DNA from: Artemia franciscana | Taxonomy: Eukaryota; Arthropoda; Branchiopoda; Anostraca; Artemiidae | Reading direction: 5' to 3' | DNA length: 64,000 nt | NCBI RefSeq assembly: GCF_032884065.1 | Contig: NC_088873.1 | Location: forward strand, 23,487,558 to 23,551,557 | Shown here: one piece after another, positions 1,149 to 52,408 of the stretch | Numbering within the stretch: position 1 is the stretch's first letter | How the letters are laid out: the number at the start of each line of letters is the position of its first letter | Program-made: the position numbers and the translations under genes | The notes under the pieces: generated by a model | What the model was told of the DNA's origin: nothing | Seen by the model: only the letters and a program-made list of their open reading frames with translations | Database searches by the model: none

Positions 1149-2254
1149 ATGGGAATTGGCAATTGGTGCGAAAATGAACTTTTCTACAATCCTATCCTGT
1201 GCTTTGTACAGAAAAATCTTGCAAAAGGAGTTTCGCCCGATACGATAAAAGAGTACTTGGCCGATTTCTTCGAGTCTTCTTCTCTTGGTGAGACCCGTAA
1301 ATTGCTTTTTTTAAATCTTTTTCCGAATGAAGTCCCATCGAAGCGCGTAGGAGCCAATGCTGCATTAAACTGTGCTTCGGACATTATTTCTTCGCTTGTA
1401 AAGTGCGATTCCCAGAACATAAAGCTTCCGGACTTTGTTATCAAATGTCCCAGCGAAGTGCCAATGATCCCTGTCGATGCCTTCAGTACCCTCAGTGCCA
1501 AGGTGAATTCTTGCCTTGAACAGCTGCGTGATATTGCGTCCAAGGTTACAGAGGGACAGTCTAAGCTTGTAGCCCCTGCTCAAAATACGAAAAAACCATC
1601 ATACGCTATCGTTGTAAGAAACCCACCCCCGGAGCTCAGCGACCCTATCCTTCGCATGAAGAAGCTCGAAACGTTGGATGGTCACGACGGAATCATAAGT
1701 CTAAAATCTAAGCCACATAGCAAAAGCTGGGTTGTGATGGTACGCGATAAGCGCTCAGCCGACTCGCTTGCTGAAGCTGTTACTAGCTCCATCCCTAACG
1801 TTGGAGCCAGAGTGATTGATAAAAAGCCTTTAGCTGTGGTCCGGGATATACCCCATAATTATTCAAGAGCTGATTTGGAGGCCTCAGTGGAAGGACTTAT
1901 TAGTGCTAGTCAAATCGGCGACTCTCGTACTTTTCGCCTCGAGTTCGTCGACAAACCGCTCTGAATGCGGTTCTGGAGTCGGGAATCCGTATTGGATATG
2001 AAATTTTTCGCGCTAAGCCCTTTCAATCCATTCCGCGTCGATGCTTTCGCTGTCAAAGTACTGATCACCTGATTGGAGCTTGTCCCAGCTCACCAGCACA
2101 TCCCAAGTGTTCCAGATGTTCTGGCCCTCATGTGAATTCCAAGGAAAACCCTTGCCAAGCCTCACCAAAATGTGCAAATTGCACTATGGAACACGTAAGT
2201 TTTAGCCTGAAATGCAAAGTTCTCCGATCGGCTCTCAACAACGCTAATAAATGA
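1149..2254 (+). pseudogene. LINE ORF1, nucleic-acid-binding Gag-like protein with CCHC knuckles, one frameshift
   Basis: The ATG at 1149 opens a frame of 271 codons that stops at 1964. The coding sequence then continues in another frame from about 1964 to the TGA at 2252-2254. That second part holds a run of Cys/His knuckles: CFRCQSTDHLIGAC, a second beginning KCSRCSGPH, and a third beginning KCANCTMEH. These are typical of ORF1 proteins of I- and Jockey-type LINEs, which coat the element RNA and assist target-primed reverse transcription. The junction equals a net -1 shift. No slippery heptamer is visible there, so it looks like a mutation rather than programmed frameshifting. The stop codon overlaps the ORF2 start as ATGA. 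Confidence 0.8.
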
Positions 2255-4902
2255 ATGCTCAAACTCCGTTTAGCTTTGTTTCCCTTAATATTAATGGTAC
2301 AAAAGACAAGGATCTACTGATAAGTGAGCTACTTGAAAATGATATTGTGTTTCTACAGGAGCACCTTCTCTCTAAAGTGAATGTTGATAGCCTAAAGCGT
2401 TCTCGGACCCATTATACCTTCTTGAGAGCCGCCCAAAAAACCCGTGGAAGACCATCAGGAGGTCTGGCCATCTATTTCAGACACAAGACTCAGCCGATAT
2501 TATTGCAAAGCGACGCTAACATTTTAGCGATAAAATGTGGTGATACCGCATTTATAAACATTTATTTCCCCTGTAATAAAAAGACTGTGCAGTCATTGTC
2601 TAGTTTTTCACAAGCATGTAATCGCCTACGAACACTACTTAGCGACCTTTCAAAACAAAATACCAAATGGGTTCTCGCCGGTGACATGAACACTGACTTA
2701 TTATCTAATTCCGACCGATCTGAAATCTTTCTCGATTCACTACCTGGAGGATTCCATCTTGCTGACAAAGATCTTCTATTTACTTATATTCACAATCGTG
2801 CTTATCTCACTTCCAACCTTGATCATGTAATTGTGTCAGATTCAACTCTACTTTCATCAATAGTTCATGTGGAAGACTCTAAAATCGACGACGATCATTT
2901 ACCAATCACGTGCCAACTATCTTGCTCCATGGCGACCTCTGTGCAACGTAACTCTCCCAAGTGGTTCTCAAAGTTAAATTGGGAAAATACCAATGTTCCA
3001 CTTTATGTATTGACATTGTCCCAGTTATTATCATCTATTAAAGTGCCTTTCCACTTATTGCAAACATCTGTATCTACAACTTCAACGCGGATAGATATCA
3101 ACTCGTATTATCAGCAAATAGTGTTCTGTCTAAAGTCTGCCGCTAAAACAGCTGTACCCTCCGAGTGCGTGCGAACGGGTACTCGCAATCCCTTTTGGAA
3201 AGTTGATCCTAAAGTGAAGATAGCTAAACAAAAAGCTAAGTTCTGGCTCCGTATGTGGATAGCCTGTAATCGTCCTTCTTCTGGTTCACTACATCAAATA
3301 AAACAGAAAACCAAACGAGAGTACAAATATTCCCTGCGTAGAGCGAGACTGAATGCCTGGGATGGTCCTTGTGACAAGAAATCCTGGGATCGTGTTATAA
3401 ACAGTGTTAAGTGTTCACCTCCAATTAATTCGTCTCTTCGGCTATGTGACTTCGTTTCTCATTATAAAAATATTTTGCTTTCGTTTAATATTAATCTCCA
3501 AAATCATTTTACAAAGCTTGTAAACTCAATCCTCCCAATTCGTATCAACCAATCTCAAGTGTTGTCGGTGGAATCTGGTGTTATACTCCGAGCTCTTATG
3601 CAAGTGAATAAGTCTGAGTCTCTCGATAGTGATGGTCTTTGCTTCAAGTTTTTTGCTTATGATTGTCCTGAACTGCTGAAGCATTTGCAATTATTGTTTC
3701 AGATGTGTTTGGCACAGTCCGTTGTGCCAGATAGTTTTTTGTCCGGTTGTATATCTCCCATAGTCAAGAGGGGTAAGGACCCCAGTGCTTGCTCTAATTA
3801 TCGTCCTATCACTGTGTCTTGTTTTGTTAGTAAGCTATTTGAATATGTACTTCTACCGGCCATTAACTCCAAGTGCAATTTTACACCCTTCCAGCTTGGT
3901 TTTAGAAAAGGTATGGGCTGTTTTCAAGCTCACCATATTGTGGGTAGGCTAATGAAACAAGCTGTTGCTCAAAAAAGTCCCCTGTATTGTTTGACTGTTG
4001 ACATATCTAGTGCTTTTGATAATGTAATTCATTCAAATGCTTTGTTTTCTCTAGCAGCCTCGGGTGTTAACCTTTCTATTGTTTCCGTGCTTAAGTATTG
4101 GTATGCTAATTCTTCAGTTAGGGTGAAGTGGAATGGTACGGTAGGGGAGTATATTCCTGTTAAAAAAGGCGTTAGGCAAGGTGCCGTGTTATCCCCGAGC
4201 ATTTTTAAATGTGTTTTAGCTTCGTGTCTCCAGCGTCTTCAACCGTCAATTTTTTACAATGATAATTTAAGCATTAGTCACGTTGCATATGCTGATGATG
4301 TTCTGCTTCTTAGCCGGACAAAAAATAGTCTAATTACCAACTTTTACCGGCTTTCAGCCGCACTATCCACAGTAGGCCTTTCAGTTAATGCCTCCAAATG
4401 TGAGTTTTTGTGTTTTGGGAGTCCTCCACCAGCATCACCTCTTTGCTTGGGTTCTTCAACTATACCATGTTCAGCAAGTATTAAATGGTTGGGTCTCTCT
4501 TTTTCCACGTCACTTTCGTCTACTTGCTCCGCTATTACGTCCAGCGTGCTGAAAAGTATGCGGGTTGGATACGCGAAAATTTCACCAAATCGTGGTCGGT
4601 ATAACCGAAATGGACTATGCCGTCTTTATTCTAGTTTTTGTGCCCCTGTTGTTTTTTATCTTTCTGGTTTTGCTTTCCTCCTTCGCAAGAAGGGTACAAA
4701 GAAAATACGCTCAGGATATTTTAAGTATTGCAAGTATTTGCTGCGTCTGCCTCGGTGGTATCGGAGTCATACAGTCGTCTCTAAATTTGACATCGTTGAT
4801 GCGCCCTCGCGACTGAAACATTTATCTAAAGATATATGTTTTAAAACTCGGCAAATGGTCGGTGTTTTTGACCCTCTTTGGCCATTTTTTGATTGGAGGT
4901 AA
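2251..4902 (+). CDS. LINE ORF2: endonuclease-reverse transcriptase, 883 aa, intact
   Basis: This is the replication enzyme of the retrotransposon; it nicks the target and copies the RNA there. Residues 1-230 form an exonuclease-endonuclease-phosphatase fold: SLNING near residue 11, FLQEH near 34, AGDMNTD near 142, and a DDDHLP site near 214 in place of the usual SDH. The reverse transcriptase occupies about residues 440-730: SNYRPITV, QLGFRKGMG, DISSAFDNV, KGVRQGAVLSP, the catalytic YADDVLLL, GLSVNASKCEF and the thumb-side IKWLGLSF. The C-terminus ends PFFDWR without an RNase H domain. The start is the ATG that overlaps the ORF1 stop. All main catalytic motifs look intact. Confidence 0.93.
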   Translation: MNAQTPFSFVSLNINGTKDKDLLISELLENDIVFLQEHLLSKVNVDSLKRSRTHYTFLRAAQKTRGRPSGGLAIYFRHKTQPILLQSDANILAIKCGDTAFINIYFPCNKKTVQSLSSFSQACNRLRTLLSDLSKQNTKWVLAGDMNTDLLSNSDRSEIFLDSLPGGFHLADKDLLFTYIHNRAYLTSNLDHVIVSDSTLLSSIVHVEDSKIDDDHLPITCQLSCSMATSVQRNSPKWFSKLNWENTNVPLYVLTLSQLLSSIKVPFHLLQTSVSTTSTRIDINSYYQQIVFCLKSAAKTAVPSECVRTGTRNPFWKVDPKVKIAKQKAKFWLRMWIACNRPSSGSLHQIKQKTKREYKYSLRRARLNAWDGPCDKKSWDRVINSVKCSPPINSSLRLCDFVSHYKNILLSFNINLQNHFTKLVNSILPIRINQSQVLSVESGVILRALMQVNKSESLDSDGLCFKFFAYDCPELLKHLQLLFQMCLAQSVVPDSFLSGCISPIVKRGKDPSACSNYRPITVSCFVSKLFEYVLLPAINSKCNFTPFQLGFRKGMGCFQAHHIVGRLMKQAVAQKSPLYCLTVDISSAFDNVIHSNALFSLAASGVNLSIVSVLKYWYANSSVRVKWNGTVGEYIPVKKGVRQGAVLSPSIFKCVLASCLQRLQPSIFYNDNLSISHVAYADDVLLLSRTKNSLITNFYRLSAALSTVGLSVNASKCEFLCFGSPPPASPLCLGSSTIPCSASIKWLGLSFSTSLSSTCSAITSSVLKSMRVGYAKISPNRGRYNRNGLCRLYSSFCAPVVFYLSGFAFLLRKKGTKKIRSGYFKYCKYLLRLPRWYRSHTVVSKFDIVDAPSRLKHLSKDICFKTRQMVGVFDPLWPFFDWR

Positions 4903-10710: not shown

Positions 10711-13700
10711 GTATTTGTGTCTCTTGGATAACTTTATTAATCATATACACTGTATGCTTCCATAGTTTAATTCCCAAAAACCATAACAAATAATGACAAA
10801 GGAGAAATGCCTCTGTTTGGGCCTGTATTCATCTTCTCTTCTTTTATTGCTTTACCAAGACTTCTTGCTAGTTTTTGAACAGGAAATTAAGACCTAATCT
10901 TTGGGCCAATTCTTTCTTGTCCAGAAAACGACTAACTCAACAATTGACTTTTTGTTAGGTTAATTTTCCCATGGTGTTTGCATCTATCAAACAAGTTCGT
11001 GGTAACGAACTGTAGTAAGGAGCGACCCGGCTCAATAGTGACCGAAACTCTAAAAAATGGAATTTTAATACCAATAGTTGCATCAAAAGAATCGCATTTT
11101 AATGCTGATTTTAAATATATAAGTTTCTTCAAGATTAATCTTACCCGTCAAAAGTTACGAGCCTGAGGAAATTTGCCTCATTTTAGAAAATAGGGAGGAA
11201 CATCGACTAAAAGTCATACAATCTTAACGAAAATCACACCATCAGATTCAGCGTATCAGAGACCCTACTGTAGAAGTTTCAAGCTCCTATCTACAAAAAA
11301 TGTGTAATTTCGCATTTTTTGCCAGGACAAAGATCACGGATGCGTGTTTATTTGTTGTTGTTTTTTTTCTTCTCATGGGTCATCGTATCGGCCAAGTGGT
11401 CCTAGACTGTCGCGAGAGGGCTCATTCTAACGGAAATTAGAAGTTCCTTTTTAAGTGACCAAAAAAATTGGAGGGTGCCTAGGCCCCCTCCCACGCTAAT
11501 TTTTTTCCCAAAGTCACTGGATCAAAATTCTGAGATAGCCATTTTATTCACCATAGTCGAAAAACCTAATAACTATGTCTTTGGGGATGACTCACTCCCC
11601 CACAGTTTCCGTGGGAGAGGCTGCAAGTTACAAACTTTGACCTGTGTTTACATATAGTAATGGTTATTGGGAAGTGTACAGACGTTTTCAGGGGGATTTT
11701 TTTGGTTGGGTGGGGGAGATAAGTTGAGGGGGAGGGGTCACGTGGGAGGATCTTTCCATGGAGGAATTTGTCATGGGGGAAGAGAATTTCAATAAAGGGG
11801 GCGCAGGATTTTCTAGCATTATTTAAAAAAAAGAAAAATAAATATGAAAAGTTTTTTTAACTGGCCCTTTTTGGAGCAGCATTAAAACTTAAAATGAACA
11901 GAAATTATTACGCATATGAGGGGTTTACCTCCTCGTTATACCTCGCTCTTTACGCTAAAGTATTTTTAGTAATTTTAACTATTCATTCTACGGCCTTTGT
12001 GATTCAGGGGTCATTCTTAAGGAATTGGGACAAAATTTAAACTTTAGTGTAAAGAGCGAGGTATTGACGAGGGGGTGAACCCCCTCATATACGCAATAAA
12101 AATATACGAATATAGAAGTTCGTTACGTAAGTTAATTCGTAAGTTACGTATATTTTTTACTAATGAAAACGTTCGTAAAAATTAAAAGTTCTAGTTGCCT
12201 TTTTAAGTAATCAAAAAATTGGAGGGTAACTAGGCCTCCTCCCTCGTTTTTTTTCTCAAAATCTTCCGATTAAAACTATGAAAAAGCCATTTAGCCAAAA
12301 AAAAAAAATTAAAATGCAAATTTCGTTTTAATTATTTATGTGCGGAGAGCCAAGATCAAAACATGCATTAATTCAAAAACGTCCAGAAATTAAATTTAAA
12401 AAAAAAGTTTTTTTAACTGAAAGTAAGGAGTGACATTAAAACTTAAAACGACAGAAATTACTACATATATGAAAGGGGCTGTTCCCTCCTCAACGCCCCA
12501 CTCTTTACGCTAGTTTTTTACTGTTTAAAAAGTAGAGTTGAAAAAAAGAGTCAAACTTTAGCGTAAAGAGCGGGGAGTTGAGGAGGGAACAGCCCCTTTC
12601 ATATATAAAGTAATTTCTGTTGGTTTTAAGTTTCAATGTCGCTCCTTAGAATCCCAAGGCGTGCATATTGTATTCGTATTTTACGAATATATAAAATCCG
12701 CCGTAATTTTGCGTCAAGGTTGTTGCCATTTTTGTGCTCACTTGGAAGCGTACTAAATGCCATATTTTACTCAACTTTGCTGTAGAATAGAGAAATTACT
12801 CCTTTCTTAGATTTTGAAAAAATGCCTTTTTGTTTTTCCATTGGAAAATACCTTTTTCAGTATTTTCATTGAAAGAAAAGTCAAATTAATTGTTTGATCT
12901 TAAAAAAAGATTTTGCCTCCCTCTTACATTTTTGGAAATTGATGTCCCTATCTGAAATCAAAACAAATTCTCTAAAAAAAAGAACGCTTTTAGTTGAATC
13001 CGTCGCATGCGGTGTTCGGTAAGCGACGTTGGTGCTCTTTCGACAGGCGACGGTGGCAAAACTGCTAGATACCTCGTTTCTGGCTTATACTTGTTTGAAT
13101 TGTAATATCCGCTCGCATGATCTACGCTCAACCTAGTAAATTCAAACTGCAGTTATTCAAAACGTTTTATGCTATATTTTTAGTGTTTCATTTTGTAACT
13201 ATTTATCACTCCCCAAGTGAAAACGGAACCAAAATATGTCAACAATATTTGCCAATGGTTTCTTTTAGATATCTGTATACGATCTGGGAGACTGATAATA
13301 GGGTCTTGCAATTTTGCAGTTGGTAACTGTTAAACATTCAGAAAATTACAAAGGAATGAGTCTTAATCTATGCAAGAGGTGTTTCTATCTTATTCAACTA
13401 TGAATTTTGAATAAAATTACAAATTGATAAATATTTATAAAACGGTTTTTAATAATTAATATGAACTTATTTTCAAAATCAGGTATAGTTTTTAATAGAC
13501 CATTACCAATTCGAAATCATGATTCGGTTTTGGAGTAATCGAGTATAAACGGCAGTATCTCTTCTGCATATTAAGGTTTTTATTTTTAAAGTATTATCTA
13601 TGACTATGAATATTCTCTAGTGGAGTTTAAGTGTCGAGGTCATTACTACATTTTTCATGCTGCGTCGATGTTGTTTAATAGGCTATCAATATTCTGACTA

Positions 13701-16700
13701 CTCAAGAAACAACTTTAAATTTTGGAAAATAAATTATCATTTTGTCTCTCCAACTGAAAATGGAGCAAGATTTGCGATATTTTGGGTTACCATATTTGGT
13801 AGCAATGCTCTTTAGGTAATTTTACATAAGATAGTTAAAATTTATTATGTGCAGCAAATAAATTGTTCACTCAATTAGTGAAGCGTCAGGGAAGTAGCAC
13901 ACTGGGACTGAGTGATTTTTTGTAAGTCAAATGGATAGAGATCAGCTTTATCTTAATCACATCTTTGTAACAACAAATAAAATAATATTAAACATGATGT
14001 TATTTGCCTCTCAGACAGGAGTAGTAATGATAAACATTATTCATTATTAAAGATTATTCAACCTGCCTGCTGTCTTTGTGACAATTTTATAATCCTTATT
14101 GTTTTTAGTATTTTGAGAAACTATATTAATTTCCCTGTCAAGTCGCTTGACATCGAAGTTTAGAAGTAATTTAATACCAGGCATGTACAGAGATCTATCT
14201 TGGGACAGGGGGGAAGGAATGAGAGATGCATTTATGAAAATGTCTGGCGATGTCAGCATTATGTAGAGACTAAAAAGAACAGTGAGAATTTGAAAAGAGG
14301 TGGCTTGGCTTAGATGCCACCCTTGATATAGGTCAGCGTGGTGCCTAATATCAATTGAAGATTTAGCTCTAGGGATTTTTCAATGTTATGCTGTACTTCT
14401 GGTTCAAATCCACGTGTATTCATGGAATAACTTTATATTCCACTACTTATGCTTAAATGTGTGTATGTTGCTGTTTTCAGCTTCAGTTTACAACTGAAAT
14501 GTAATTTCAGGTATAGATGGAGGTGTAACTACGAATAAAAAAAATGAATATGGAGTTAAAGAGTGAAATAATTTACCAGGTCTTAGGCTTGAATTTAGAA
14601 ATAGTTAAGCTTTAATAAAAAGATCGACGGTTTGTGACTATTTATTAAGTCTTTGCATTTGTAGACAAGGAATCAGTTTTGTTACATACATCTGTGAATG
14701 CTCCAAGTTTTTACCGTATCTTCTTGAGGAGTTCCGGAAAAACCGTGGCAATGTGGTTGAGCAGACAATCAAAAACTGGGCTCAGCTTGTTGATACCTAC
14801 GATATTATAGTTGACTGTAGCGGAATAAGGGCTCGAGACTTGGCTGGTGATCGATCCGTGGCTCCAAAAAGAGGCCAGGTAATGCGTGTAACGGCTCCCT
14901 GGATCAAAGCTGTGATTCTAGATGATTCTGATGATGGAAATTATGTAATCCCTAAGTAAGTAGACAAATAGTTTTTTTATAGCATGCATTTATAAACAGT
15001 ACACAGTACTTAGTTTTATGAATTGTATATCTTCGTATCATAAGCTAAACGTTGTATCTGACACTTTATCTTAAGCTGAACTATAGGAAACATATAATGT
15101 TTTTTTTCTGTAAGCATTTATGCATTGATCGTGTATGCAGAGGAGAATTTGATTCGTACGAAGCAAGGTAGACGTTACGCGCACGGCTGTATCCAGAGGC
15201 GATGAGTTGCAGGATTAGACCCCCTCTCCTAAATTTTTGTCCGACTTTCAAAAACTGAAAAAAATGCATATCAACAAAATTTTAATGCTTTTGAATTTTC
15301 TTTTGTGCCCCCCACCTGAACGAAAATCATGGATACCCGATTTGTTCTATGATTAGGGAAAAGAAAGAAGCTATCACTTTATGTACTATATTAAATTAAA
15401 AAAACAGAAAAGTTTTTTCTACTGAATGTAAGGAGCTACATCAAAACTTAAACGAGCAGAAATTATTCCTTGTGAGGTGGGCTGCCCCCTCCTCAGTACC
15501 GCTCTCTTAACGCTAAAGTCTTTAAGGCCTTGCGCACTTCCAGAAATTATACTCTCAGTTCAATTCTTTTTCAATCGCGGCAAATCACAGAAACACTCAA
15601 GGTTATTAGATTTCACTGCCGTCATTAAACTCAAGGGGTTTCTCACTGAAAATTACGATTATTGTATTGTCATGCTTCGTAATTTGGCAAGTAAATAGGA
15701 ATATTTATTTGCAAAAGAACTATTATTCGAGGAGAAAATTAGAGAAATTATTATTCCAGATTTTTTGGGGGGAGGAGAGGGGTTCAACTCTTACGAAAGA
15801 AATACCAGGAAAACACGGGAAAATTAAACATTTCACTGAGAAAATTAAGCATTTTACAAAGTTAAGGTGGGTGAATCCCTCCCCTGCGTGTGTGCCTGTG
15901 GTCTGGTCATTATTAGTTATTTATGCTGACTTATTATTTATTATTTTAATGCTGACTTTAAATATATCAGTTTTACCTATCTAAAATTACGAGTCTAAGA
16001 AAAATTGCCTTATTTTAGAAAATAGAGGGAAACACCCGCTACAAGTAATAAAACCAAATTTACACCCATCCGATTCAACATATCAGGGATCCCTACTGTG
16101 GAAGTTTCAAGCTCCTATCTGCAAAAATGTGGATTTGTTTTTCCAGGGATGATCTTATCGAACCAGTTGTCCTAGAATGTTGCGAGCGGGCTCATTTCAA
16201 CGGAAATGAAGTTATATATAAGTGAATTATATATAAAAATGAAGTATATAGTACCCTTTTTAAGCGATCCAAAAAAATTGGAGGGTGCCTAGGCCCCCTC
16301 CCGTGCTAATTATTTTCCCACAGTCACCGGATCAAAATTATGAGGTAGCCATTTTATTCAGCATAGTCGAAAAACCTTATAACAATGTCTTTGTGGACGA
16401 CTTAGTCCACCAGAATCCCCGTGGAAGGGGCTACAAGTTACAAACTTTGATCAGTGTTTATATAGTAATGGTTATTGGGAAGTGTACAGACGTTTTCAGG
16501 GGGATTTTTGGCTGGGGGGAGGGGCTGAGAACATGGGGTTATGTTGGAGGAACTTCCCCATGGAGGAATTTGTCATGGGGGAAGAAAATTTCCATGAAGG
16601 GAGCGCAGGATTTTCTAGCATTATTTAAAAATAAAACATTACAAAAATAAATATGAAACAGTTTTTTCAACAGAAAGTAAGGAGCAGCATTTTAATTTAA

Positions 16701-19700
16701 AACTAACAGAATACAGAAGTTCGTTACGTAAGCTAACTCGTAAGTTACGTATATCTTTTACTAGCAAAAATGTTCGTAAAAAATTAAGTTCTAGTTGCCT
16801 TTTTAAGTAACCAAAACATTGGAGGGCAACTAAGCCTCTTCCCCCGCTCCTTTTTTCTTAAAGTGATTCGGTCAAAACTATGAGAAAGTCATATAAATAT
16901 GCAAATTTCGTTTTAATTATTCATCTGTGGAGAGCCAAAATCAAACATGCATTAGTTCAAAAACGTTCAGAAATTAAATAAAAAAGACATGTTTTTAACT
17001 GAAAGTAAGGAGCAACATTCAAACTTAAAACGAACGTAAATTACTTCGTATATGAAAGGGGCTGCTCCCTCCTCAACTCCCCGCTCTTTACGCTAAAGTT
17101 TGACTCTTTCTCTCAACTCTACTTTTTAAAACAGTAAAAAACTTTAGCGTAAAGAGCGGGGCGTTGAGGACGGAGCAGCCCCTTTCATATACAAAGTAAT
17201 TTCTGTTTGTTTAAGTTTTAATGTCGCTCCTTACTTTCAGTTAAAAAAACTTGTTTTTTTTATTTAGTTTATCCATACGGGTTCATTAAAAAATATTCTA
17301 AAGTTCGAGTGTTGCTTGAGTATTTGTATATCTGAATTTGTATTCGGATAAGACTATAATGACACATGATAACTACCCATACCTAGCACAGTTGGATTTA
17401 TATAAACGGTTCTCGTATCTCCATACTTCTTGGCAACCTTCTGTCGACAATTTCTGGTAACAGTGCCTCAAAATAAAAATTTTGTAGATTGGGCAGCATT
17501 TTGTTAGATCAGAATTCTCGGTCACGACCAATCTTTTCATAATATAATTCTTCTTCCCCTAAAAATATTACAAAGTATACAAAATCAATGTCACAACATT
17601 CCAATTGCATTTGAATTTGGTAATAGTAGTCATCTGTTCTTTTCAGCTTTATATCACTATTAACTTTCTTTTCAAGACATGTATTTTTTTTAAGCGCTAT
17701 CCACTCTTCCAATGTAAGCCCTTTTGCTGTCAAAGGGCACTTTACCCCCAAAAGAGCCTTCTCACCCGAAGGAAAAATTGCTATCCCGTCCGGACTGGCC
17801 CCTAGAAACCCATATTCCTTGTGAATGAGCAGAGTTCACTTGTGAAGCCCAGCAGAGTTCACAATGCAACCCGTTCTCTTTGCAAAAGCTGCAATAGCTA
17901 CAGGCTCATACATCTGACCATGCTCCATTGCCTTTGTTTGGCGGTTTCTGGGATACAGCAGCTGCCGAACTAATGAACCCACAGTCTTCAACCGCCTTTT
18001 ACAAACAGCACCAGCTACGGAAGCTGTAATTCTGTTTTTTCTGTATTCTATCCAGTTATTATCGATAGAGTTTCTCTGAAGCCTTGTGGGTTTTTCGATA
18101 CTGAGGATTTCCGTTGCAGTACATTGGAGACGGGTCAAAAAATCTGGTTTTTCAATTTCGAGCGCACTGCAATCAAGATCCGGAGCGGTTGCGTTCGAGC
18201 CGTAGTTTTTGTCTGCTCCGTTTGGCTCCCTGATTTCTTTTGAAGGGAGTTTGGTGGAAGTATTAGTGAAAATGCGCTTTCTAGCGGACAGTTTTTTACG
18301 TCGAGCAGTAGTCATGGCCCACTGCTGTGCAAGTTTTTTCAACTGCCTACTTGGTGTAGATCCTACAGTTCTTCGAAATATTTCAAGGCGAGCTGAGTGA
18401 CCTTTCGTAAATCGGATTCCTGCTGCTTTAACACGGGTGGTATATCGCGCACTTTGGCTAACCATGATGTTTTTGCCACCTATAAGCCTTGCAACTATGC
18501 TCATAAAATATTCTGCCAGGCTGCTCGTGTTATTTCCTATCAGTAGACGAGCCCTTCTGGTCAGCGTATCAAAGGCTGAATACACATGGCTGAGAAAGAT
18601 GTTGCTAGGGGTGTCTGTAGGACAAAATCTATGGTCGCCACGGAAAAAATGCAGAGGAATTGCCTTCAGCGCACTGATGAGATCCTTTACGCTTTTCTTC
18701 TCTGTGGTGGTACATGCATTGTATTTCTGGCAAAATCACACATTTTCTTTATTATTGCGGCACTAAGAAATCTTCTGCATTCGGCATTTTTATGCTGCTT
18801 CTTATATAGTCTGTTTTTCAAGCATTTGCACGCATGATTAGCACACTCAATTTTTTCTACATTTCTGCCATATGGTACCCTTGCTATAATTTCAGAATGG
18901 GTACTCGAATCGCCGTCGGCAACAAATCGAGCATATCTTAGATTGTGCATGGATGTTGCTATTCGGAATGCGTCAACTAATATATCTGACTCCATACCTG
19001 TACTAGGCCCCTGCCAGTTCATAAAACATGTATGTTCAGGAACAGATCTATTTACTTGATGCCTGTATTTCACGCACGTACAGCAATATCTGTTCCTAAT
19101 TCCTAGATTTAAGAGTTTCTTCTAATAGAAACCTATCACCACTCCACAGCCTGAGAGTGCGCGATACCTATTCCCGTAACTTTGTGTACACCAGCTTCCA
19201 TAATCTATAACACATATCTCTACATCTCCATTTGGGTGAATTTTCTCACCTGCTTCCAATGCCATCCTTCGCTCGGTTTTCCCATTTTCGATAAGATAGT
19301 CATAGAGAACTTTTTCCAATTCTACGCAAATTTCTTTCTCAAATTTCGTAGACTTTTTGAGACGGGGTATTTATTCCAATGGTAGAGGAAAGTTCTTGAA
19401 CCTGGGCGTGAGGCATTCCGCCATTTATTGCACCAACCACTACCTCTTTGTTGACACTTACTGTTCCTGTTTCTGTTTTGTATTTCTTTCTGATAGTATT
19501 CACACTATCAAAATCAGTCCTTTTCCGTTTTTTGACTACGGTTTTCTTTGAGTCTGTTTTTTTAAGCCTTCGAGGAGCAAGGGGCTTTTCTGTGTGAATT
19601 GTGGCTTCCTCATGACATGATTCGCATTTGAAGACGAGTCTTGTGCGCAATCCAGCTCTATATTCTCTAGAAAACATCATATTTGAAACCAAATTGATGT

Positions 19701-22700
19701 CTTGGCACCTGTAAATAAAATGCTAATTGGTTGTGAGGAAGTAAAATAATAAAGTAGCGGCTTTATTGTTTTGGTAGAAAGGAAAGTGCTATAGCTTCAA
19801 AAAGGATAGGTAGTATGTAGAGTAGTGAGCGATGTAGGGTAATTAAAATATGAAATAAAATATAAAATATAGCTAGAAATGGGTGAGAAGTGGAAATTAT
19901 ACGATCTAACCGAAAGTTTGTTGTATTTCATTGTCAGATTAAACCACCCAATTTTATATATGTATGTAACCAAGCCAAAAACTGTCCTGAAACTACCAAT
20001 CAGGAAAGCCAAGTATTTCAAAACTTTACAAAATCCTTTGGGGCATGACAGGAAATGCCCTCTGAATCGACCCGTGTCGATTTACCAAATTCCAAGGAAA
20101 ACTACTAACCGAATTCCAAGAAAAATCAAGTCTCACTTGACTCCCTAAAATCAAATTCAAAGTAAAAATCCGTGCCCCAAATTCAGTTGCATCTCAACCA
20201 TCATTTACATTTTTATTCGAGTAATCCACACAGTTCTTATTAGTACGATTAAAAATACCAATATGCTTTTATGAGTTAGGAGGATCAAATTAGCTCGTTT
20301 GTTTCTCAAATCCTTTAAAGCCTTTGCAGACATTCTTTCAGAACCTTTATCCGTACTTTTTAATGATTAAATAAAAAACAAGTTTTTTAAATGAAAGTAA
20401 GGAGCAACATTAAAACTTAGAACGAACAGAAATTATCCCGTATATGAAAGAGGCTGTTTCCTCCTCAACGCCCCGCTCTTTACCCTAAAGTTTGACTCTT
20501 TCTCTCAACTCTACTTTTTAATACTGTAAAAACTTTAGCGTAAAGAGCGGGGCGTTGAGGAGGGAACAGCCCCTTTCATATACGAGGTAATTTCTGTTCA
20601 GTTTTAAGCTTTAATGTTACTCCTTCCTTTCATTTAAAAAAAATCGTTTTTTTTATTTAATTTCTGAACGTTTTTTAGTTAATCCATGTTTTGATTTCGG
20701 CTCTCCGCAGATGAATAATTAAAACGAAATTTGCATTTTTATTTTTTTCGCTAAACGGCTTTCTCATAGTTTTGATCGAACGATTTTGAGAAAAATGAGC
20801 GGGGAAGGAGGCCCAGCTGCTCTCCAATTTTTTGTTACTTAAAAAGGCAACTAGAGCTTTTAGTTTTTTACGATGGTTTTCATTAGTAAAGATATACGTA
20901 ACTTACAAATTAGCTTACCTAACGAACTTCTATATTCGCAGGTATCTATTACGTATATAAGGGGGGTTCGCCCACTTGTCAATACCTCGCTCATTACACT
21001 AAAGCTTAAATTTTGTCCTAAATCCTTAAGAATGACCCCTGAGTCACAAAGGCCGTAGAATAAATAGTTGAAATTACTAAAAATACTTTAGCGTAAAGAG
21101 TGAGGGATTAGGAGGAAATTAACCCCTTATATGTGTAATATTTTTTGTTCGTTTTAAGTTTTACCGCTGGTCCTTACTTTCAGTTGAAAACACTTTTTCA
21201 TATTTATTTTTTCATTGTTATTTTTTTAAATAATGCTAGAAAATCCTGTCCCCCCCCCTTCATGGAAATTTTCTTCCCCCATGAGAAATTCCTCCATGGA
21301 AAGTCTCCCCCACATAACCCCCTCTTCTCATCCCCTCCTCCCAACCAAAAGATCCCCCTGAAAATGTCTGTACACTTCTCAATAATCATTACTATGTGCA
21401 AACACTGGTCAAAGTTTTTAACTTGCAGCTGCTCCCACGGGGACTTTGGGGGAGTAAGTCGTCCTGAAAGACATAGTTATAAGGTTTTTCAACTATGCTG
21501 AATAAAATGGCTATATCAGGATTTTGATCGGACGACGTTTGGAAAAAATGAGCGTGGGAGGGGGCCTAGGTGCCCTCCAATTTTTTTGGTCACTTAGAAA
21601 GGGCGCTAGAACTTTCATTTCCATTCGAATGTCGACCACTGGGTCGATACAATCACCCTTGTAAAAAAAAAAATAAACACGCATCTGGGATTTGTGTTTT
21701 GGCAAAATATACAAAATTCTACATTCTTGTAGATAGGAGCTTGAAACTTGTACAATAAGGTTCTCTGATACGCTGAATCTGATGGTGTTATTTTCTTTAA
21801 GATTAAATGACTTTTAGGGGGGTTCCCCCATTTTATAAAATAAGGTAAATTTTCTCAGGCTTGTAACTTTTGATGGGTAAGACTAAACTTGATGATGAAA
21901 CTCACATATTTAAAATCAGCATAAAAGTGCGATTCTTGAGATGTAACTCTTGATATCAAAATTCTGTTTTTTAGAGTTTTGGTTACTATTGAGCCGGGTC
22001 GCTCCTTACTACAGTTCGTTACCACGAACTGTTTGAAATTACCTCTACTGGTAAGTTCGCTTTATGTTGGAAATAAAATGAAAAAAAGAAGTTTTTTAAC
22101 TGAAAGTAAGGAGCGACATTAACGAACAGAAATTACTCCGTATATCAAAGGGGCTTTTCCATCCTCAACACCTTGCTCTTTACGCTAAAGTTTGACTCTT
22201 TTTCTCAAGTTTACTTTTTAAAACAGTAAAAAACTTTAGCGTAAAGAGCGGGGCGTTGAGAAGGGAAAAACCCTTTTAATATACAGAGTAATTTCTGCTT
22301 GTTTTAAGTTTTAATGTCGCTCCTTACTTTCAGTTAAAAAACTTGTTTTTTTTTCATTTTATTTCTGAACGTTTTTGGATTAAGAATACATTTTTTTTCT
22401 GTTTTTTTTTCTGTTTCTCTGTTTGCCATTCTGGCATGTCCAATGAATTGTGGGACAGAATAGAGGCAGTTCAAAAAACATGTCTAAGAATCATTTTCAA
22501 ACAGGGTAATGGGCCTTACATTTCCCTTCTTCGGAGAGCAAATCTAGTCACCCTTAAGGAAATGAGAGTACAAATTTCCTTATTATTTTGCCAACAATAC
22601 CGTGCATAACCCTTGTACTACTTCTCTTTTCCCTAGTGAACATTTACCCACCCGGCACGTCAGGGGCGGATCTAGGATTTTTTTTTTTGGGGGGGGGGGT

Positions 22701-25700: not shown

Positions 25701-28700
25701 TTCAAGAATCGTTATTAAAGAATTGAGACGAAAGGTCGCACTTTAATGCTGCTCGTTACTTTCAGCAGAAAAACTTGTTTTTTTTTTATCTGGTTTCTTT
25801 TAACTTTTGCTGCTGCATGGAAACACAGCTTGCTGATTGAAATTCTTAGTGACACCCTTGGATTCAATAAACACAGGCGACGCCTTTGTTATCCAACCCT
25901 CCATCGCTGTGACGGTGGGTTGCTGCGATATATCTTACATGCTTTTCTAACCTATCTTTCCTCTTTGAGCATGGATTTTTTTGTGCTCGGAGTACCATAA
26001 TGGGGTCAGGTCTTCCAATTTTTTTCTAAAATACTTTTTCCTTTTTCAGCATGGATTCTGTAGTACTTGGTGGAACTCACCAAGAAGGAGACTGGAATAT
26101 GAACATATATCCTGAGGATACCCAGTTTATATTAGAAGGTTGTCAAAGACTAGTTCCAGCACTTAAACATGTCCCGGTCCAGCGTGAATGGGTTGGACTT
26201 CGGCCAGGAAGACCCTCTGTACGGCTGGACAGAGAAGTAGTCAGAGTAAAAAACAGAAAAGTTACTGTAAGTTTTTCTTTCTGTTCCATTAAGAAATTCC
26301 ATGTGATTGTGGTGTTGATCATTCCCTGGCGGCATAGCTGCTACCAATTAAAGTCTCTTTAAGAAAAATCTTGAATGTCCTCTTAAAAACATTTTAAGCA
26401 TGATTCGGACAAGTTACATCTAGAATCCTATCCTTGACGAAAAAATGACGATTTATTCTTGCTAGTTTGCCACAAATCCAGAATTCTAGACTATTATTTT
26501 TATGACAAATTGCCAGATTGCTACAGATCAAAGATTGCCAAAGATCATCCTTGTCAACCAACCATCTAGGGCCAGACGAAAAGCAGGTCGTACCACAATG
26601 TCCTAGGAGGATGTCATAAGGGAAGATTTAAGGAAATTATAACTTCTTGGGAGAGTGTAAAGAGTGAGGCTTTGATAGATTGGGATGGAGGTTGAGCTCG
26701 CGAGGCTGTCTTGGCCTCAGGTGGCTTGATGCTACAGTGTGTATTTAATATTAGTTATTATAGTATTTTATATGGATCAGCACGCCTAAGAATTTTAGCC
26801 TACTTTCCCTTTTTCAGTTCAGTAGCCAGCGCTATAGCGTTGCCTATAGTAAAGGGCCATAAGGCTTCAATATATTGTGTTCTATTTAGTTTTTTTCCTA
26901 GAGGCCCTTCATAGTGGTGGTTGTATAAACTTCGGAGGGAGCTCATTTGATTGAAAATTGAAAGACCTAGTTCCGTTTTTAAGAGTAAAATCAGAGGGTA
27001 ACAGCCCCCCCCCCTTACGCCCTTTTATCCTTAAATACACCCGATCAAAATTTTTAGATAGGTATTTTTTTCAAAATAATCCGAAGGTCAAATAACTATG
27101 CATCTGGGGTTTCACAAAAACCCATCACCACTGGGGTAAGGGCTGTAAGTTATGCAAGCTGTCCGATGTTAACATATAACGTTTTAATTGAAGGGGTTAT
27201 AACATAAACTTTGGAGGGAGCTCATTCGATTGGAAACTGAAAGTTCTAGTACCTTTTTTAATAGGAAAAAGTGATCAGAGGGTATTCAGAACTCCCCCTC
27301 CTCCACGACCGTTTTTTCCAAATGCATCTGATCAAAATTTTGAGATAACCATTTAGTTCAAAATAGTCCAAAGGTCAGATAGCTGTGTCTCTGGGGCTGA
27401 AAATCCCCAATTATCCTCCGGGACAAAGGCTATAGGTTTGATCCCGGGTTTCCACAAAAGGCTTAGGTTATCAAGGTGAAACTTTAAGGAAATGTTGAGA
27501 GGGATGCCGAATACAGTCAAAACATACTATGTGCTTGCTAGTTGTGAAAAGGGAATATCAGCAACATCTAAGGAACGGGTGAGAGTATTAAGTTGAAACT
27601 TTCAAGGTATGTTGAGGAGATGTTGAAGAGAGTTTGGAGGGCAACCAGACCCCCATCCCTCCCTCCTTGCCATTTGTAGGTGCGCTTTCTGCTCATAACT
27701 GATCGGAATTTTTATATTATCATTTTGTTCAAACTAGTCAGGAATGCCGTGGGTGCCATCTCCCCACCTCCAGGGGGAGAGAGTGGTTATGTAAACTTCA
27801 GATGGGGCTCATTCAATTGTAGATTGAAAGCTCTAGTGCCCTTATTAAGGGTCAAAAGGGATCAAGATGCAACCAGTTCCCCCCCTTTCCACACTCTTTC
27901 CCCCAAATGTATTCAATAAAAATTTTGAGATAGCCACTTTGTTCAAAATGGTCCAAAGAAACATCCTGCATATTAGAGGTGTTATTATTTATTTATTGTT
28001 TGTTTTTCCCAGAGACACTTTGTATAGACAAAGTGGTTGTATAAACATTTGAGGGGGCGCATTCAATTGCAAATTGAAAGTTCTATTGCCCTTTTTTAAA
28101 AGTCAAAAGTGACTGGAGAGGAACCAGCCCCCCCCCCCGTACAGTAATTTCTCCCCAAATGCATCCAATAAAAATTTTGATATATTCGTGTTGCAAAGAG
28201 ATTGGAGGGAAACCAGCCCCCTTTCCCTTTTTATGTGCCCCCTTTCCTCAACAACAGTCAAAATTTTATAACTATCGTTTCTTGCAGGATTTATCTTTTG
28301 GAAAAGGGGAAATATTTTTTTCATGGTGTATCTGAAAAGGATAAGGGTATTTAGTTGAAAATTTCTAGAATGTTTAGGGGTATGTTTGACTAAATCAAAA
28401 GACAGTATGTGCATCCAGTTTATCAAAAAGGAAGGATCTGCAATATTTTAAGAATTGCTTAGGGCATTGAGTTGAAACATTCAGAATATGTTGAGGGGAA
28501 TTGGGGAAAGTGGCTGGAGGGCTGCTGGCCCCCTCTCATGCCCTTCTTAGTTTTCCTTCCTCCAAAAACATTCGATCAAAATTTTGAAATAGCTATCTTG
28601 TTCAAAATAGTTGAAAAGTCAAATAAGTGTGCCTCCGGGAATGACTTAACCCCCACAGTCCCTAGGGCAAGTGTTAAGTTGTATAACTTGCCCATTGTTT

Positions 28701-31700
28701 ATATACATGGTTGGCTATTGGAAAATGAGGGCATGTTTGATCCTGAGTCTTCAAAAAGGCTATGGACATTAAGATGAAACTTTTAGAAAATGTTTCGGGG
28801 GGGGAGGAGATTTTGAAACAAAATCAGAACATACTATGTGCAGAAGGGTTGTCAAAAGGACACAATAGTAATATCTAAGGAACGGCTAAAGGAATTTAGT
28901 TGAAACTTTAAAGGCATGTTGAGAGGGATATTGAAAAAGGGACGGAAGACAACCAATCCTGCCCCCTCTTGCCCTTTTGTTTGCCCATCTCAACACTGAT
29001 AGAAATCTTAAAGGGGTATTCTATTCAAAACTATCACACCGTCTAATAGCTATGCCTGTGCGAATGCCATGCCCCCACAAAAGGTTAAGGGTATTGAGTT
29101 GAAATTTCGGGAAATGCTGAAGGGTATGTCGAACTAAATCAAAAGAAACAATCTGCATCCAAGGTATCAAAAAGGCACGTCTCCAGTATCTTAAGAATAA
29201 GTAAGGGTATTAGCTCGAAACTTTCAGGGCCACTACTACCACTACTATTGTGGCTGCAAATGCGACTGGTTGCTACAGTGACCGTGACTACTTCCGACTG
29301 TGACAACTTGCAACTGTGACTGTGACTGCTTGCAACTGCTACTACATCTACTTGTGATTGTCCTTAGGAAATTTTAAACAAAATTAAAACAGTGTGTATA
29401 CGCTGATTGTCAAAAGTATATATCACCAACCTCCCAGGAATAACTAAGGGCGTTAAGTTGAAACTTTAAGGGCATATCGGACCCGTCCTGACAAGGGCAA
29501 AGGTCCTCTTGTCCTTTTTAGACCCCCTTAATACTGGTCAAAATTATGAAACAACGAATTTCTTCAAATTAATCAATAGGTCTGACAAATATGCCTATTT
29601 GAATGTAATGCCCCCCACAATCCCTGGACTACTTTGTAAATTGTGCCCATTATTTGCATATAGGATTTTTTCAATGATAATTTGAATTAACAGTTATCTT
29701 AGGATATTGCTACTACTTCTGTGACTACAACTACGGCAATGACTACTTGGGACCGCTTTCAAGCGTGACTACTTATGACTGTGGTTGTGACTATCTGTAT
29801 TGACTGTAACTACTTGTAACTGCGTGTACTAGCGAATGCCATTACTTGTGACTGTGACTAAGGCTACTTGTGATTGCAACTGTAACTGTAAATTCTCTGT
29901 GGGAGGGAATTTCCAACATTGGAATTTTTCATGGGAAATCTTGAAACGGTGGAGGGAAGACAAGGAGATTTCCTGACATGATTTGATGACGATCTGGAAT
30001 GAAATAAAAAAGAAAAACAAGTTTTTTCGGCTGAAAGTAAGAAGTAATATCCGGGTTGCAGCGGTAGCTAGCAACCTAGTAAGAGACGATTACATCCCCT
30101 ATTAAAAACTACAATAACCCATAACTCAAAAAAATTGAGGCAGATCAAAACAAGGAGTACACTATTAGAACTGTCTCGACCGAAACCCCTATATAGGAAA
30201 CTTGCCGTCTCTTGGCTTGAGCAACAATTCAAAACATAAAACGAATTGCAATTTCATTGTATGTTCATTTCATTTGTAATTTATGTGAAAAAAAAAATGC
30301 TCAAAATTTAATTTTGTTGGTTTTTACTATCATTTTCAGGATATTTCAGGAAATTTGCCTCCAGAAACTTAGTTTTGTATATTTGAGTGTTTCTCTTTGA
30401 AATAGTTATTTGACTTTCAATCTCCCGTGATTTTCTGCCACTATGGGACTCTGGACCAAAAAGGTATGGAAGGACCCTATTAGCCTTTTTAACTCCATCT
30501 CATAAAAAAAAACATTATGCTTAAAAGTTTCGTTCGAAGGAGCACTATTCCAAGATTGTATGATCTCAGATTTGATTTGGGTTGCCCCGTAATCGTAGCT
30601 TTAGTGGTGTATATAGAGTAGGAGGCTATAGGCTCCGTCTGTCGCCCAGCCAGAACTACGTCTACGCTTATAATTTAAATTCAAAATGTTACAATATGCT
30701 CACATTTATTCTAAATTTTATCAACTAACCCCTGGGTCTAGATCCAACAAGTTCCAAATTCCAACTAAGTATATCTTATTCCCTTTCTAAGGCAATTCAC
30801 TTGAAAACTTTTAATTTGTCTTTAGTCATTCGCATAATTTTGGGTAGACTCCCCGAGATATCTTTGGAAAAAACACAAATTGCTTTGGTGAAAATATCCA
30901 TTAAGTTGTATGTTTAACGATCTATAACAAGGCTGCCTCTATTTGAAGATTTATTTATAAATCACTTTGTGTGAAATAGGCAATTGTTCATTACTTTGGG
31001 CCCTTCTCTAGGGGCTGCTAGGATCACGCCACCTACCCTTGACGAGGTAATTTTTGTGTATTTTGACCTTTCTGTTTAAGATGGCTGCCTAGAAATTTTG
31101 ACGCGACACCTTTTTTGGCAGCAAGAAGCCTAGTGAGAAAAATCGCTTGGAAGGGGTCTACTTGCCCTCTGGTTGCTTCCGACTCTTGAAAAAGGGCACT
31201 ATCAATCGCAATTTCCGTTTTATCGATTAGAAATCTACGGTGAGTGTGAATTGTTCAGAAGGTGATAAAAAAGACGTGGTAAATCTGTAAATTGCTTGCA
31301 GGTATTTTGAGATACATAGCCTCTATAAAGTTTATTTGCTAGTTTGAATATGTGCTTGCATTTGTGAGTATCGGGAAATTTTAATGATTTTGGTTCATCA
31401 GTGTCCACAACACTTACTTGGACACTTTGAATAAGAGAATTTGACACTACAGGTGAAAAAAAATTATGGCGTTAACAATGTGACCCTTGAAGTTGATGGC
31501 AAAGCTAAATAATCATTGCGACAAGACCATGGTATTTATTTGGTAGTATAACCTGGGTGTACTCAATTAAGAGCTGCTTCGACCCAGCAAAACCACCGCT
31601 GGGGTACGTTTAAACAACAATTAGCGCAGTTGAACTAAGCATATAAGTAAAAGTAGCAGGGTTAAGCAAAAAGACGACAGCGCTAGACCCTATGCTGGTA

Positions 31701-34700
31701 AAATAGTCAAAGGAACGTTTGATGTGTATAACTGGCATGTGCTACAAAAAACTGATGTTTTCTTCAGATACTATGATTCTGAATACTCTCTTTTTCGATT
31801 GATGAACCTTTGCCTGTCTAAATAGTGCTCTGTTCTTTTGAGAACACCCAAAAGTGATCTACCTCTCATTACACTAGCAATATTTAGCAAGCAGTAGCTA
31901 GTAATAGAATTTTTTTGTCTGACTAATTTATAGCCGTTTTTGTTACAACACTTCCTTACAGATGTTTTTTTAAGCGAAAATCTTTGAAAACCAATACAAA
32001 CTCTCCGTCTCCGTATTATTTCATCAAGGAATGGTCAATCACAGTTTACGGTAATCTACTTAGTTTTATGTTTAAATGATGCCTACAATGGCAGCAGATT
32101 GCTACTGGTTCTCAAAATTAATGAAAAGGATTAGTCAGGGTAGTAGTGCTAAATATTTTAAGGTTTTTTTTTTGTGATTTCTGTAACTGTGCTTATTTTA
32201 CCTAAGAAATACGGGAATAATTCGGCTGAAGTACTCTCACATTATATATTATGAATTGGGCGTCCGCCTCCTTATAAATATCAACTAAAAAAAAAAAAAA
32301 AATTTTTTAACTGAAAGTAAGGAGCGACATTAAAACTTAAAACGAACAGAAATTACTCCGTATATGAAAGGAGCTTTTCCTCCCCAACGCCCCACTCTTT
32401 ACGCTAAAGTTTGACTCTTTCTCTTAACTCTACTTTTAGCGTAAAGAGCGGGGCATCGAGGAGGAAAACCCCTTTTTATACGGAGTAATTTCTGTTTGTT
32501 TTAAGTTTTAATATCGCTCCTTACTTTCAGTTCAAAAAACTTGAACTGAAAAACTTGGTTTTTTATTTTAATTTCTGAACGCTTTTGAATTAATGCATGT
32601 TTCGATCTTGGCTCTCTGCACATAAATAATTAAAACTGTATTTGCTTATTATATTTTTTGGGGCTAATAGTTTTCTCATAGTTTTAATTGGAAGATTTTG
32701 AGAAAAAAGGAGCGGGGAAGGAGGCCTAGTAGCCCTCCCAATATTTTGATTACTTAAAAAAAAAACTAGAACCTTTAATTTTTTACGAACGTTTTCATTA
32801 GAAAAAAATATACGTAACTTACGTAACGAACTTCTATATTCGTATATTACGTATATGAGGGGGTTCACCCCATCGTCAATACCTCGCTCTTTACACTAAA
32901 GCTTAAATTTTGTCCCAATTCCTTAAGAATGGCCCCTGAATCATCAAGGCCGTAGAATAAATAGTTGAAATTACTAAAAATACTTTAGCGTAAACAGCGA
33001 GGTATTATGAGGAGGTGAACCCCTCATATGCGTAATAATTTTGTTCGTTTTAAGTTTTAATTCCGCTCCTTACTTTCAGTTGAAAAAACTTCTCATATTT
33101 ATTTTTTCATTCTGTGAAATTCTCTTCCCCTATGACAAATTCCTCCATGGAAAGATCCTCCCACGCAACCTCAGCCCCCTCAACTCCCCCCCCCCCAAAC
33201 CAAAAAAAACTAAAAAAATCTCTGCACTCCCAATAATCATTACTATATGTAAACACTGTCAAAGTTTGTAGCTTGCAGCCCCTCCCACGGGGACTGTGGG
33301 GGAGTAAGTCGTCCCCAAAGACATAGTTATTAGGTTTTTCGAGTATGGTGAATAAAATGGCTATCTCAGAATTTTAGTCCGGTGACTTTGGGGGAAAATG
33401 AGCGTGGGAGGGGGCCTATATGTCCTCCAATTTTTTGGTCACCTAAAAAGGGCACTGGAACTTTTAATTCCCGTTAGAATGAGCCCTATTGCAACATTCT
33501 AGGACCACTGGGTCGATACGATCACCCCCGGGAAAAAAAAACAAAAAAACAACAAATAAACACGTTCCCGTGATCGGTCTTCTGGCAAAAATACGAATAT
33601 CCACATTTTTGTAGATAGGAGCTTGAAATATACGCTGAAAGCGATGATGTGATTTTTGTTGAGATTCTACGACTTTTAGGGGGTGTTTCCCCCTATTTTT
33701 TAAAATAAGGCAAATTTTTTCAGGCTCGTAACTTTTAATGGGTAAAACTAAACTTGATGAAACTTATATATTTAAAATCAGCATTAAAATGGGAGTCTTT
33801 TGATTTAACTATTGGTATCAAAATTCCATTTTTTAGAGTTTCGGTTACTATTGAGCCGGGTCGCTCCTTACTACAGTTCGTTACCGCGAACTGTTTGATA
33901 ATTTTGTTTAGTATGACGTTAGACTTTGATGGGTTTGGAATTGACTGAACCCTTTAATTTTTATTTTGCCAAATACTAAGGGGGTATATCAGATTGTAAT
34001 GATTTTAAAGGAGAGTGAAATTAAGGTCTATAGGTTTTACAGAGAAGTGTTTTTTTCAATAATTTAAGTTCGGAAAATCAGTACAAAAATTAGGCAATGT
34101 GGCTTCACTTTGGTAGATGATGTGATCAAAAAGTGAATGTCCCTGTTTTGTAATTTCAGTTGAGCGTCATTTAGTGGACTTGGAGAGACCTTTGTTATAG
34201 TTTGTCGGTAATAAGAGAACTGGTTTTCCACTTGAGGATATTCTACTCGTCTTAAAGACACCTGACTTTAAGACACCTGACTATTCGCTCTGTGGAGTTG
34301 CGTGTATCCACTACTGCTATTTATGTTCTATTCTCGATGAAGTAGGAAAAATTGGTTCTCTAGTCTTACAGACTCCTCTTAAAAGCATGTAATGATTATG
34401 AGCTATGCACAGTCATGCGTTTTTTTTTTTTTTTTGTTTTTTTTTTAAATTTCAAAAAGGAAAGGAAATTTATCTGGAGCTAGTGTATATGGTATATGGC
34501 AAAAATTGCATGAGTGGGCAAATGTTGCTACAGTGTTATGAAAACTTTATTCAGGGACGTTCTGACACCACAATATTGAAAGACAAGCTTAAGTTTTGTT
34601 AAGTCTGTGTGAGGTGGGTTTTAGCTTTCTCTTCTGAAAACCACAAACAGTAGCGAGTTGGCGCTGCAGCGAATCTTCGGATATTCTCGATCGTGAAGTT

Positions 34701-35779: not shown

Positions 35780-36855
35780 TTCTTTTTTCGGATTTACAAG
35801 AAAATTCCGTTTTGATGATCAATTGATTTTTCTTTATTTTGCTATGAGGAATTAGTTGGCTGTAGGAAACAGCCAACAAATGAAGTCGCTGTTTATGCAT
35901 TATGTTGGCTGATTTTGGGTTTTGAGTTTCAAATCCAGACCCCATGTAGATTTAACTGATTGTTTAAAGTAGGTATTGTATATTAGTTTCAATGTATTAC
36001 TGTGCAATATATTTTCATTTATGATTGTGGAATTTACCGCATTTCCAAACAATAACTGTTAGTTTTCCCTCAGTTTTTCTTTTTCTTATTTTTATTTATC
36101 ATACTGCCACTGTATTATTCCCACATAATGATCATCTGTAAATGGTATTTGGAATAGTAGGATTAATCTTTGTACCGCTGCAATTCTTTCTTCAAGGACA
36201 TGCGCTCCATGACCATCATTTTTATCACCATAAAATTCTATTTTATATTCCACCTTCCAAGAAATTACTAGGTCCCCCGCCACTCTGTTTGCCAACCCGT
36301 CCCACAAACTGCTCTTCTGTCTCCCCAATTATGTTATAAGCCTCCTCCGTGACGATGTTCATTATTAATTACGATGTTATGGACCCTAATTTAGGACCAT
36401 GGACAGAAATAAAAAGTCAGCGGGCCACAAACTACCATACTCCTGATTCCTGGTGGACCTTTATTCCAGAAAAAATGACCTATAAAAGAGAGGTGTCTGT
36501 CTCCTTTGTTCGTTTTTTTTACTGTTTTCCAAAAGGTGTTTTTATTTGTAGTGTTCATTTGTCGGTATTTTGGTCGGCCAGTGTTGAACTAAATGTATCG
36601 TAAATTTAAGTATCACTTTTCAGGTTCTGGTGTTTTGAGTTGTCTTGGTTGAACTTCTTGTGTTAAGCCCCTTATGTTGAGCTGTTGGCGTGTTAAGTTG
36701 TCTGTGTTGAGTTAAACGTGATGATCTTCCTCTTTTAAGTTATGTGTGTTGTAACATATATATTGAGTTTCTTGACTTTAATTTTCTAAATTGAATTTCG
36801 TGTGTTGAACTGACTAGATTGAGATTTGTATATATTAACTTGTCTATATTGAATT
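35780..36855. other. Intergenic; TGTGTTGA-rich imperfect repeats at 36630-36860
   Basis: No gene was recognised. Between 36630 and 36860 phrases such as TTGTGTTAAG, TGTGTTGAGTT, TGTGTTGAAC and CTGTGTTGAAT recur about every 20-30 nt, ending at the start of the next LINE. Confidence 0.5.
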
Positions 36856-36859
36856 TCCT

Positions 36860-40555
<3,696 letters not shown>

Positions 40556-42812: not shown

Positions 42813-42833
42813 CTGAAAAAATAAGTATCTCAT

Positions 42834-50153: not shown

Positions 50154-50301
50154 AAATCATACTTGAAAAAATGTATTTGAAAAAGATCCCGATGAGACAT
50201 TTAAAAAGAGAATCAAAGGAAGGTTGAAGTAAAATAAATAATATTAGATTTTATATATTATATTTTATATTAGATTTTAATAAAATAATTTACTAATAAA
50301 T
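49575..50301 (+). repeat. Direct duplication, copy 1 (about 730 bp)
   Basis: It is nearly identical to 50531-51258 (offset 956 bp). Differences include ATTTATC/ATGTATC, CAAACAAG/CAAAAAAG and one extra C in AACCCCCGAAAATG in copy 2. Confidence 0.92.
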
Positions 50302-50530
50302 GGCAAGTTTTATTCAGTATACAATGTTTCGGTCCCCTTTTGAAAAAAAGAAAAAATAAAGAATGCTCCAGTGCTAAAAGAAAATATCAAAATCGTGCAA
50401 ATTACACCAGAAAATTGACAGAGATCCTGTTAAATTTCTTTTTAAACCAAAGGCAAGTGAATAAAATAGAAAAATTTATAGATTTTTCTATTACTTTACA
50501 ATATTACGATGCTATAATTACTATACTATT

Positions 50531-52063: not shown

Positions 52064-52236
52064 CCGCTCTTTACGCTAAAGTTTTTACTGTTTTAAAAAG
52101 TAGATTTGAGAGAAAGAGTCAAACTTTAGCGTAAAGAGTGGGGCTTTGAGGAGGGAACAGCCCCTTTCACATGCGGAGTAATTTCTGTTCGTTTTAAGTT
52201 TTAATGTCGCTCCTTACTTTCAGTTAAAAAAACTTT
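52064..52236. repeat. Truncated hairpin 2 unit
   Basis: It starts abruptly in the inner part of the left arm (CCGCTCTTTACGCTAAAG), contains the loop in the R orientation (AAAAAGTAGATTTGAGAGAA) and a complete right arm to GTCGCTCCTTACTTTCAGTT. The outer left arm is missing. Confidence 0.85.
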
Positions 52237-52408
52237 TTTTTTTTATATTTAATAGCATTATAGAAGAGAGCTTCCTTTCTTGAATGCCTGATAAGTATTA
52301 AAAAACAAGTTCATGAAAAAACTTGCCGAACAGGTTTCTTAAAAATCCAAACAGACTATTTTTTTGTCCTCACTGATTGAAAGCTAGTTTAATACTGTCG
52401 GTCTGTGT

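Follow-up and report, generated by a model that had tools for sequence, protein, structure and literature searches.

A noncoding repeat in the stretch of DNA analysed here (64,000 nucleotides, referred to below as the window) raises a question about the behaviour of long palindromes: one of its copies carries the loop of its terminal hairpin in the direction opposite to that of its relatives. We were interested in three aspects of this arrangement: (i) whether the reversal is real; (ii) whether the loop was turned in place or brought in by a separate insertion; and (iii) what kind of process could have reversed it. The initial annotation had proposed recombination between the arms of the hairpin, or a hairpin intermediate, and had likened the outcome to the switching of terminal palindromes in some viruses.

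The repeat and its copies in the window

Self-comparison of the window revealed a noncoding repeat of about 1.7 kb, present as copies A, B, C and E and as two pieces, D and F. The outer end of the repeat is a palindrome of about 300 bp, hairpin 2, with an asymmetric centre of 37-51 nt. Copy A (10985..12648, plus strand) is canonical, with the outermost part of hairpin 2 missing. Copy B (15943..17270, plus strand) lacks the start of the repeat and a further hairpin, hairpin 1, and has hairpin 2 at its terminus. Copies C (20366..22040) and E (32289..33903), both on the minus strand, are canonical; copy E was absent from the copies listed in the initial annotation, as was piece F. Piece D (22070..22383, minus strand) consists of hairpin 2 and a short stretch of repeat that reaches to near 22383. 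Piece F (52064..52254, plus strand) consists of hairpin 2 with one arm cut; it has no repeat flank against which its orientation could be scored, and was therefore left out of the orientation count.

With the copies aligned in one sense, a repeat start bearing a short stem-loop is common to A, C and E, and a repeat end, formed by the outermost part of hairpin 2, is common to B, C, D and E; copy A ends just before it. Hairpin 1 is found in A, C and E, in the same sense in all three, and is absent from B. The corresponding gap in B (16660-16740, against 11904-12097 in A) coincides almost exactly with the span between the two stem bases. Copy B may thus either have undergone a palindrome-directed deletion or descend from a state that lacked hairpin 1.

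We note that the outer end of hairpin 2 is kept in all five partial copies (22070-22383, 52064-52254, 15389-15523, 25742-25785 and 30002-30051), the weakest of which, near 30020, was matched at E = 0.11. The stem-loop end of the repeat was found in A, C and E only. An exact-pattern search for further copies in viral and prokaryotic contig collections gave no match, as expected, and sequence words searched in open-access papers likewise gave none.

Orientation of the palindrome centre in copy B

Hairpin 2 of copy B, a near-perfect palindrome at the outer end of the repeat, spans about 16971..17270 on the plus strand. Folded as single-stranded DNA, it reaches -108.9 kcal/mol, against a mean of -27.7 for shuffled sequences (z = -20.8). 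The span of the palindrome replaces the 16997-17251 given in the initial annotation.

We then aligned the centres, each comprising the asymmetric loop. The centre of B (17095..17145, plus strand) consists of that loop and a few symmetric bases per side. As it lies, this 51-nt segment aligned with the centres of A, C, D, E and F at scores of only 5.5 to 13.5; after reverse complementation, the scores against the same five centres rose to 30 to 46. In a control with 2000 shuffles per comparison, mean scores were 3.5-5.6 and the maximum was 15. The centres of A, C, D, E and F share one sense in 10 of 10 pairs, F being read on the plus strand. We scored the orientation of each repeat from the flank outside the palindrome, which runs on the plus strand in A and B and on the minus strand in C, D and E; the call for D is weaker, because its repeat flank is short and ends near 22383. 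Relative to the repeat, the centre is canonical in A (12512..12559, plus strand), C (20487..20536, minus strand), D (22187..22237, minus strand, judged against its short flank) and E (32406..32437, minus strand, shortened to 32 nt), and inverted in B, that is, in one of the five scorable copies. The reversal of B relative to A, C and D, claimed from inspection of the letters, was thus borne out, and copy E adds a further canonical case. In E, hairpin 2 has a centre about 18 nt shorter than in the other copies.

A later insertion of a hairpin in the opposite direction, with its own target duplication, was the outcome that the initial annotation had named as fatal to its proposal, and the alignment showed nothing of the kind. 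The junction between repeat and palindrome can be aligned across all five copies with repeat flank (A to E), which have it in common, and no repeat sequence lies beyond the palindrome in B, C, D or E. Given this common junction, and a palindrome that itself forms the end of the repeat, we rejected a separate hairpin insertion into B. As the palindrome of B occupies the same place as those of the other copies, its centre was either inverted in situ or inherited in the turned state from the source copy. The loop inversion in B is confirmed as real, is of a known kind, and is largely ordinary.

Likeness of the arms and the process behind the reversal

The arms of hairpin 2 are almost symmetric. 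Read from outside to inside, with the arms of B assigned by its loop, the two arm consensuses are identical at 106 of 108 positions. Of 106 core columns, 36 vary, and none distinguishes one arm from the other in A, C, D and E. This bears out the earlier suggestion that a flip leaves the arms unchanged; with arms this symmetric, a flip leaves almost no trace in them, and its breakpoints cannot be placed. The two arms of B are unlike at nine or more core columns; among these, columns 127 and 173 hint weakly that the inner arm turned with the loop, and none clearly indicates the opposite. The arms of the copies are about 83-94% alike, and the copies are, to judge from this divergence, old.

Arms of the same copy resemble each other more than they resemble the arms of other copies. 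Over core columns, the mean identity between the two arms within a copy was 90.6%, the highest value among the 120 possible pairings of the five X arms with the five Y arms. The excess in within-copy identity was 0.026 (bootstrap 0.008 to 0.047). Four variants are confined to a single copy yet occur in both of its arms: A and B have one each, C has two, and D and E have none; that of B lies at alignment column 160. No shared private variant appeared in any of the 44 full re-pairings, and only 2 of the 120 pairings, the true one included, reached four. With wider columns, 5 of 120 pairings reached the observed number, and the mean over full re-pairings was 0.75. The sharing at column 143 could reflect two independent CpG changes; with this column left out, the observed identity was reached by 2 of 120 pairings, and with all four shared columns left out, by 7 of 120. 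These patterns indicate, with a modest signal, that sequence was exchanged between the arms of single copies at some time.

We think it probable that the centre of B was inverted in place by the palindrome's own arms, most likely via a template switch. A replicating strand would switch to the opposite arm, copy the loop in reverse and switch back, and the same switch would also make both arms alike; a crossover between the arms is a close alternative that would yield the same product. Inversion mediated by the arms would explain both the turned loop and the homogenisation of the arms in B. In yeast, a polymerase that switches template between inverted repeats both homogenises the arms and inverts the spacer; ten spacer inversions, nine of them on already perfect arms, have been described there, some of them recurrent (PMC8604942). 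Two features of B match a spacer inversion of this kind: its loop is the reverse complement of related loops, and its inverted-repeat arms have kept their place. Arms unusually alike within a copy, a further expectation of template switching, were also found, within the limits of the pairing test. We infer that the event in B was a template switch, that it occurred in B's own lineage, and that the majority of copies, not B, retain the original orientation; the direction of change is read from the majority, with one flipped copy in five. Of the process first proposed, in-place inversion and exchange between arms fit these results; the viral comparison (see below) has no support here.

The inversions described in yeast resemble that in B in three respects: the loop is reverse-complemented between unchanged arms, the arms are made alike, and the arms are mostly perfect. 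They are reversible in yeast, and differ in scale, with arms of about 10-16 bp and spacers of a few bases against about 108 core arm bases and a 37-51-nt loop here. They also come from genes, in sequenced strains whose ancestry is known, whereas we are dealing with a repeat without an ancestor (PMC8604942). Minute hairpin-loop inversions in plastid DNA have been called "flip-flop mutations" (PMC6824564, citing Kelchner and Wendel 1996). There too the loop occurs in two orientations between the same stems, with several changes in 6 of 11 cases, but the stems are very short and the comparison is among species at one locus rather than among dispersed copies (PMC6824564). For nuclear DNA, work on great apes describes how two template switches can leave an inverted segment together with near-perfect inverted repeats; the cases it reports are mutation clusters at single loci with known ancestry and, unlike ours, have no long terminal palindrome (PMC7954356). 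Hotspots of avian microinversions are described as not linked to stem-loops (PMC3123225), which argues against stem-loops as a general cause of nuclear inversions and indicates that other causes exist.

The repeat offers a longer loop and longer arms than the yeast and plastid cases considered here, and its dispersed, palindrome-ended copies could serve as parallel trials of how often a nuclear hairpin loop turns over. One flipped copy in five is a mere pointer toward such a rate; a genome-wide count would give the rate itself and would test whether the likeness of the arms goes with the turning of the loop. Searches of the open-access literature retrieved no matching title (titles and abstract openings) for loop orientation in palindromic transposable elements, and no paper on flip-flop or spacer inversion in a transposon or foldback context. 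The available portion of a report on Galileo foldback elements (PMC4168063) makes no mention of loop inversion.

The foremost of the other readings, though an unlikely one, is ectopic gene conversion, in which a donor lying in the opposite direction overwrote the centre of B and, through the symmetric arms, installed its loop backwards. Suitable neighbours exist: within the window C, D and E run opposite to B, with C at a distance of about 3 kb, and on the plus strand their loops have the same sense as that of B. However, the peculiarities of the C, D and E centres do not recur in that of B, and the two arms of B share a variant private to this copy. A donor within the window is thus unsupported by the loop sequences of C, D and E when set against that of B; a donor beyond the window, elsewhere in the genome, is possible.

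It is rather improbable that B instead derives from an older or separate lineage whose source loop was already turned, with no event at the B locus. The missing or diverged start of B would fit such a subfamily difference, as would its lack of the hairpin 1 seen in A, C and E. Over the stretches compared, however, the similarity of B to A is on a par with that of C to A and E to A (about 81-83%), which does not make B an outgroup, and an inversion would still be required, only earlier.

The link to viral terminal palindromes supposes that the flip belongs to the element's own replication, each round yielding either orientation and the copies becoming a mixture. The repeat does have its palindrome at one end, and one reversed copy in five (or in six, with F) is compatible with an even mixture (two-sided binomial p of about 0.4 and 0.2, respectively). 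We nevertheless hold this reading to be very improbable, and equally so the specific form in which copying of the element would itself turn the palindrome over, for instance by way of a single-stranded intermediate with hairpin ends or of the rolling-circle type. A replication gene was not found among the scanned open frames, and the single exception is accounted for by a known, ordinary process. The copies are old and diverged, and one flipped copy in five does not demonstrate a recurrent switch. Because loop inversion between inverted repeats is known in nuclear and plastid DNA without a virus-like cycle, such a cycle is not needed here. Were it true, loop orientation would record the copying history of each copy, and the repeat would be a noncoding transposable element of a eukaryote with a flip-flop end.

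Least probable of all is an assembly artefact: long, nearly identical arms are a setting in which assemblers err, and a palindrome whose arms are symmetric may be put together either way round, but the arms here span only about 108 core bases, and the differences between those of B at nine or more core columns would give reads an anchor.

Affinities of the repeat and its setting

In its structure the repeat resembles the nonautonomous HINE/DINE-1 elements derived from Helentrons, although we do not claim membership. A 13-base subterminal motif, AGTAAGGAGCGAC, is found close to where A, C and E start and recurs, inverted, in the outer arm of hairpin 2; in HINEs the subterminal inverted repeats are described as sharing 11 or more identical bases (PMC4067079), a length that this motif exceeds. 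Another HINE trait, a short palindrome near one end, has a counterpart in the stem-loop with which A, C and E begin (three matches). The likeness comprises an inverted subterminal motif at both ends, a stem-loop at one end and a T-rich end; in contrast to the elements described, the repeat has a very large palindrome at one end, and its end distances differ (PMC4067079). HINEs are described as flanked by Ts and lacking target duplications (PMC4067079). For target duplications we considered the complete copies C and E, in which the longest shared end word was 6 bases and lay off the junction, the element ends being approximate. No Rep or helicase was present among the open frames scanned within the window (8 and 10, partly the same).

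The window is AT-rich, with a GC content of 27-41% in 2-kb steps. It looks eukaryotic: long open frames are few, and the domains seen among the scanned open frames were reverse transcriptase, exo-endo-phos, a piece of a Mutator-like transposase and a piece of Bax1-I. Reverse transcriptase frames lie at 2251-4902 and 36839-38766, both on the plus strand, the first of which also contains the exo-endo-phos domain, an arrangement known from non-LTR retrotransposons. Between copies B and C, a frame with a YqaJ domain and the Mutator-like transposase piece occupy 17839-19121 (minus strand) and are probably the remnant of another transposon. The frame with the Bax1-I domain (42447-42851, minus strand) is probably an exon of a host gene. 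Finally, 49576-51258 holds a head-to-tail duplication of about 957 bases, with 99-100% identity in the listed parts.
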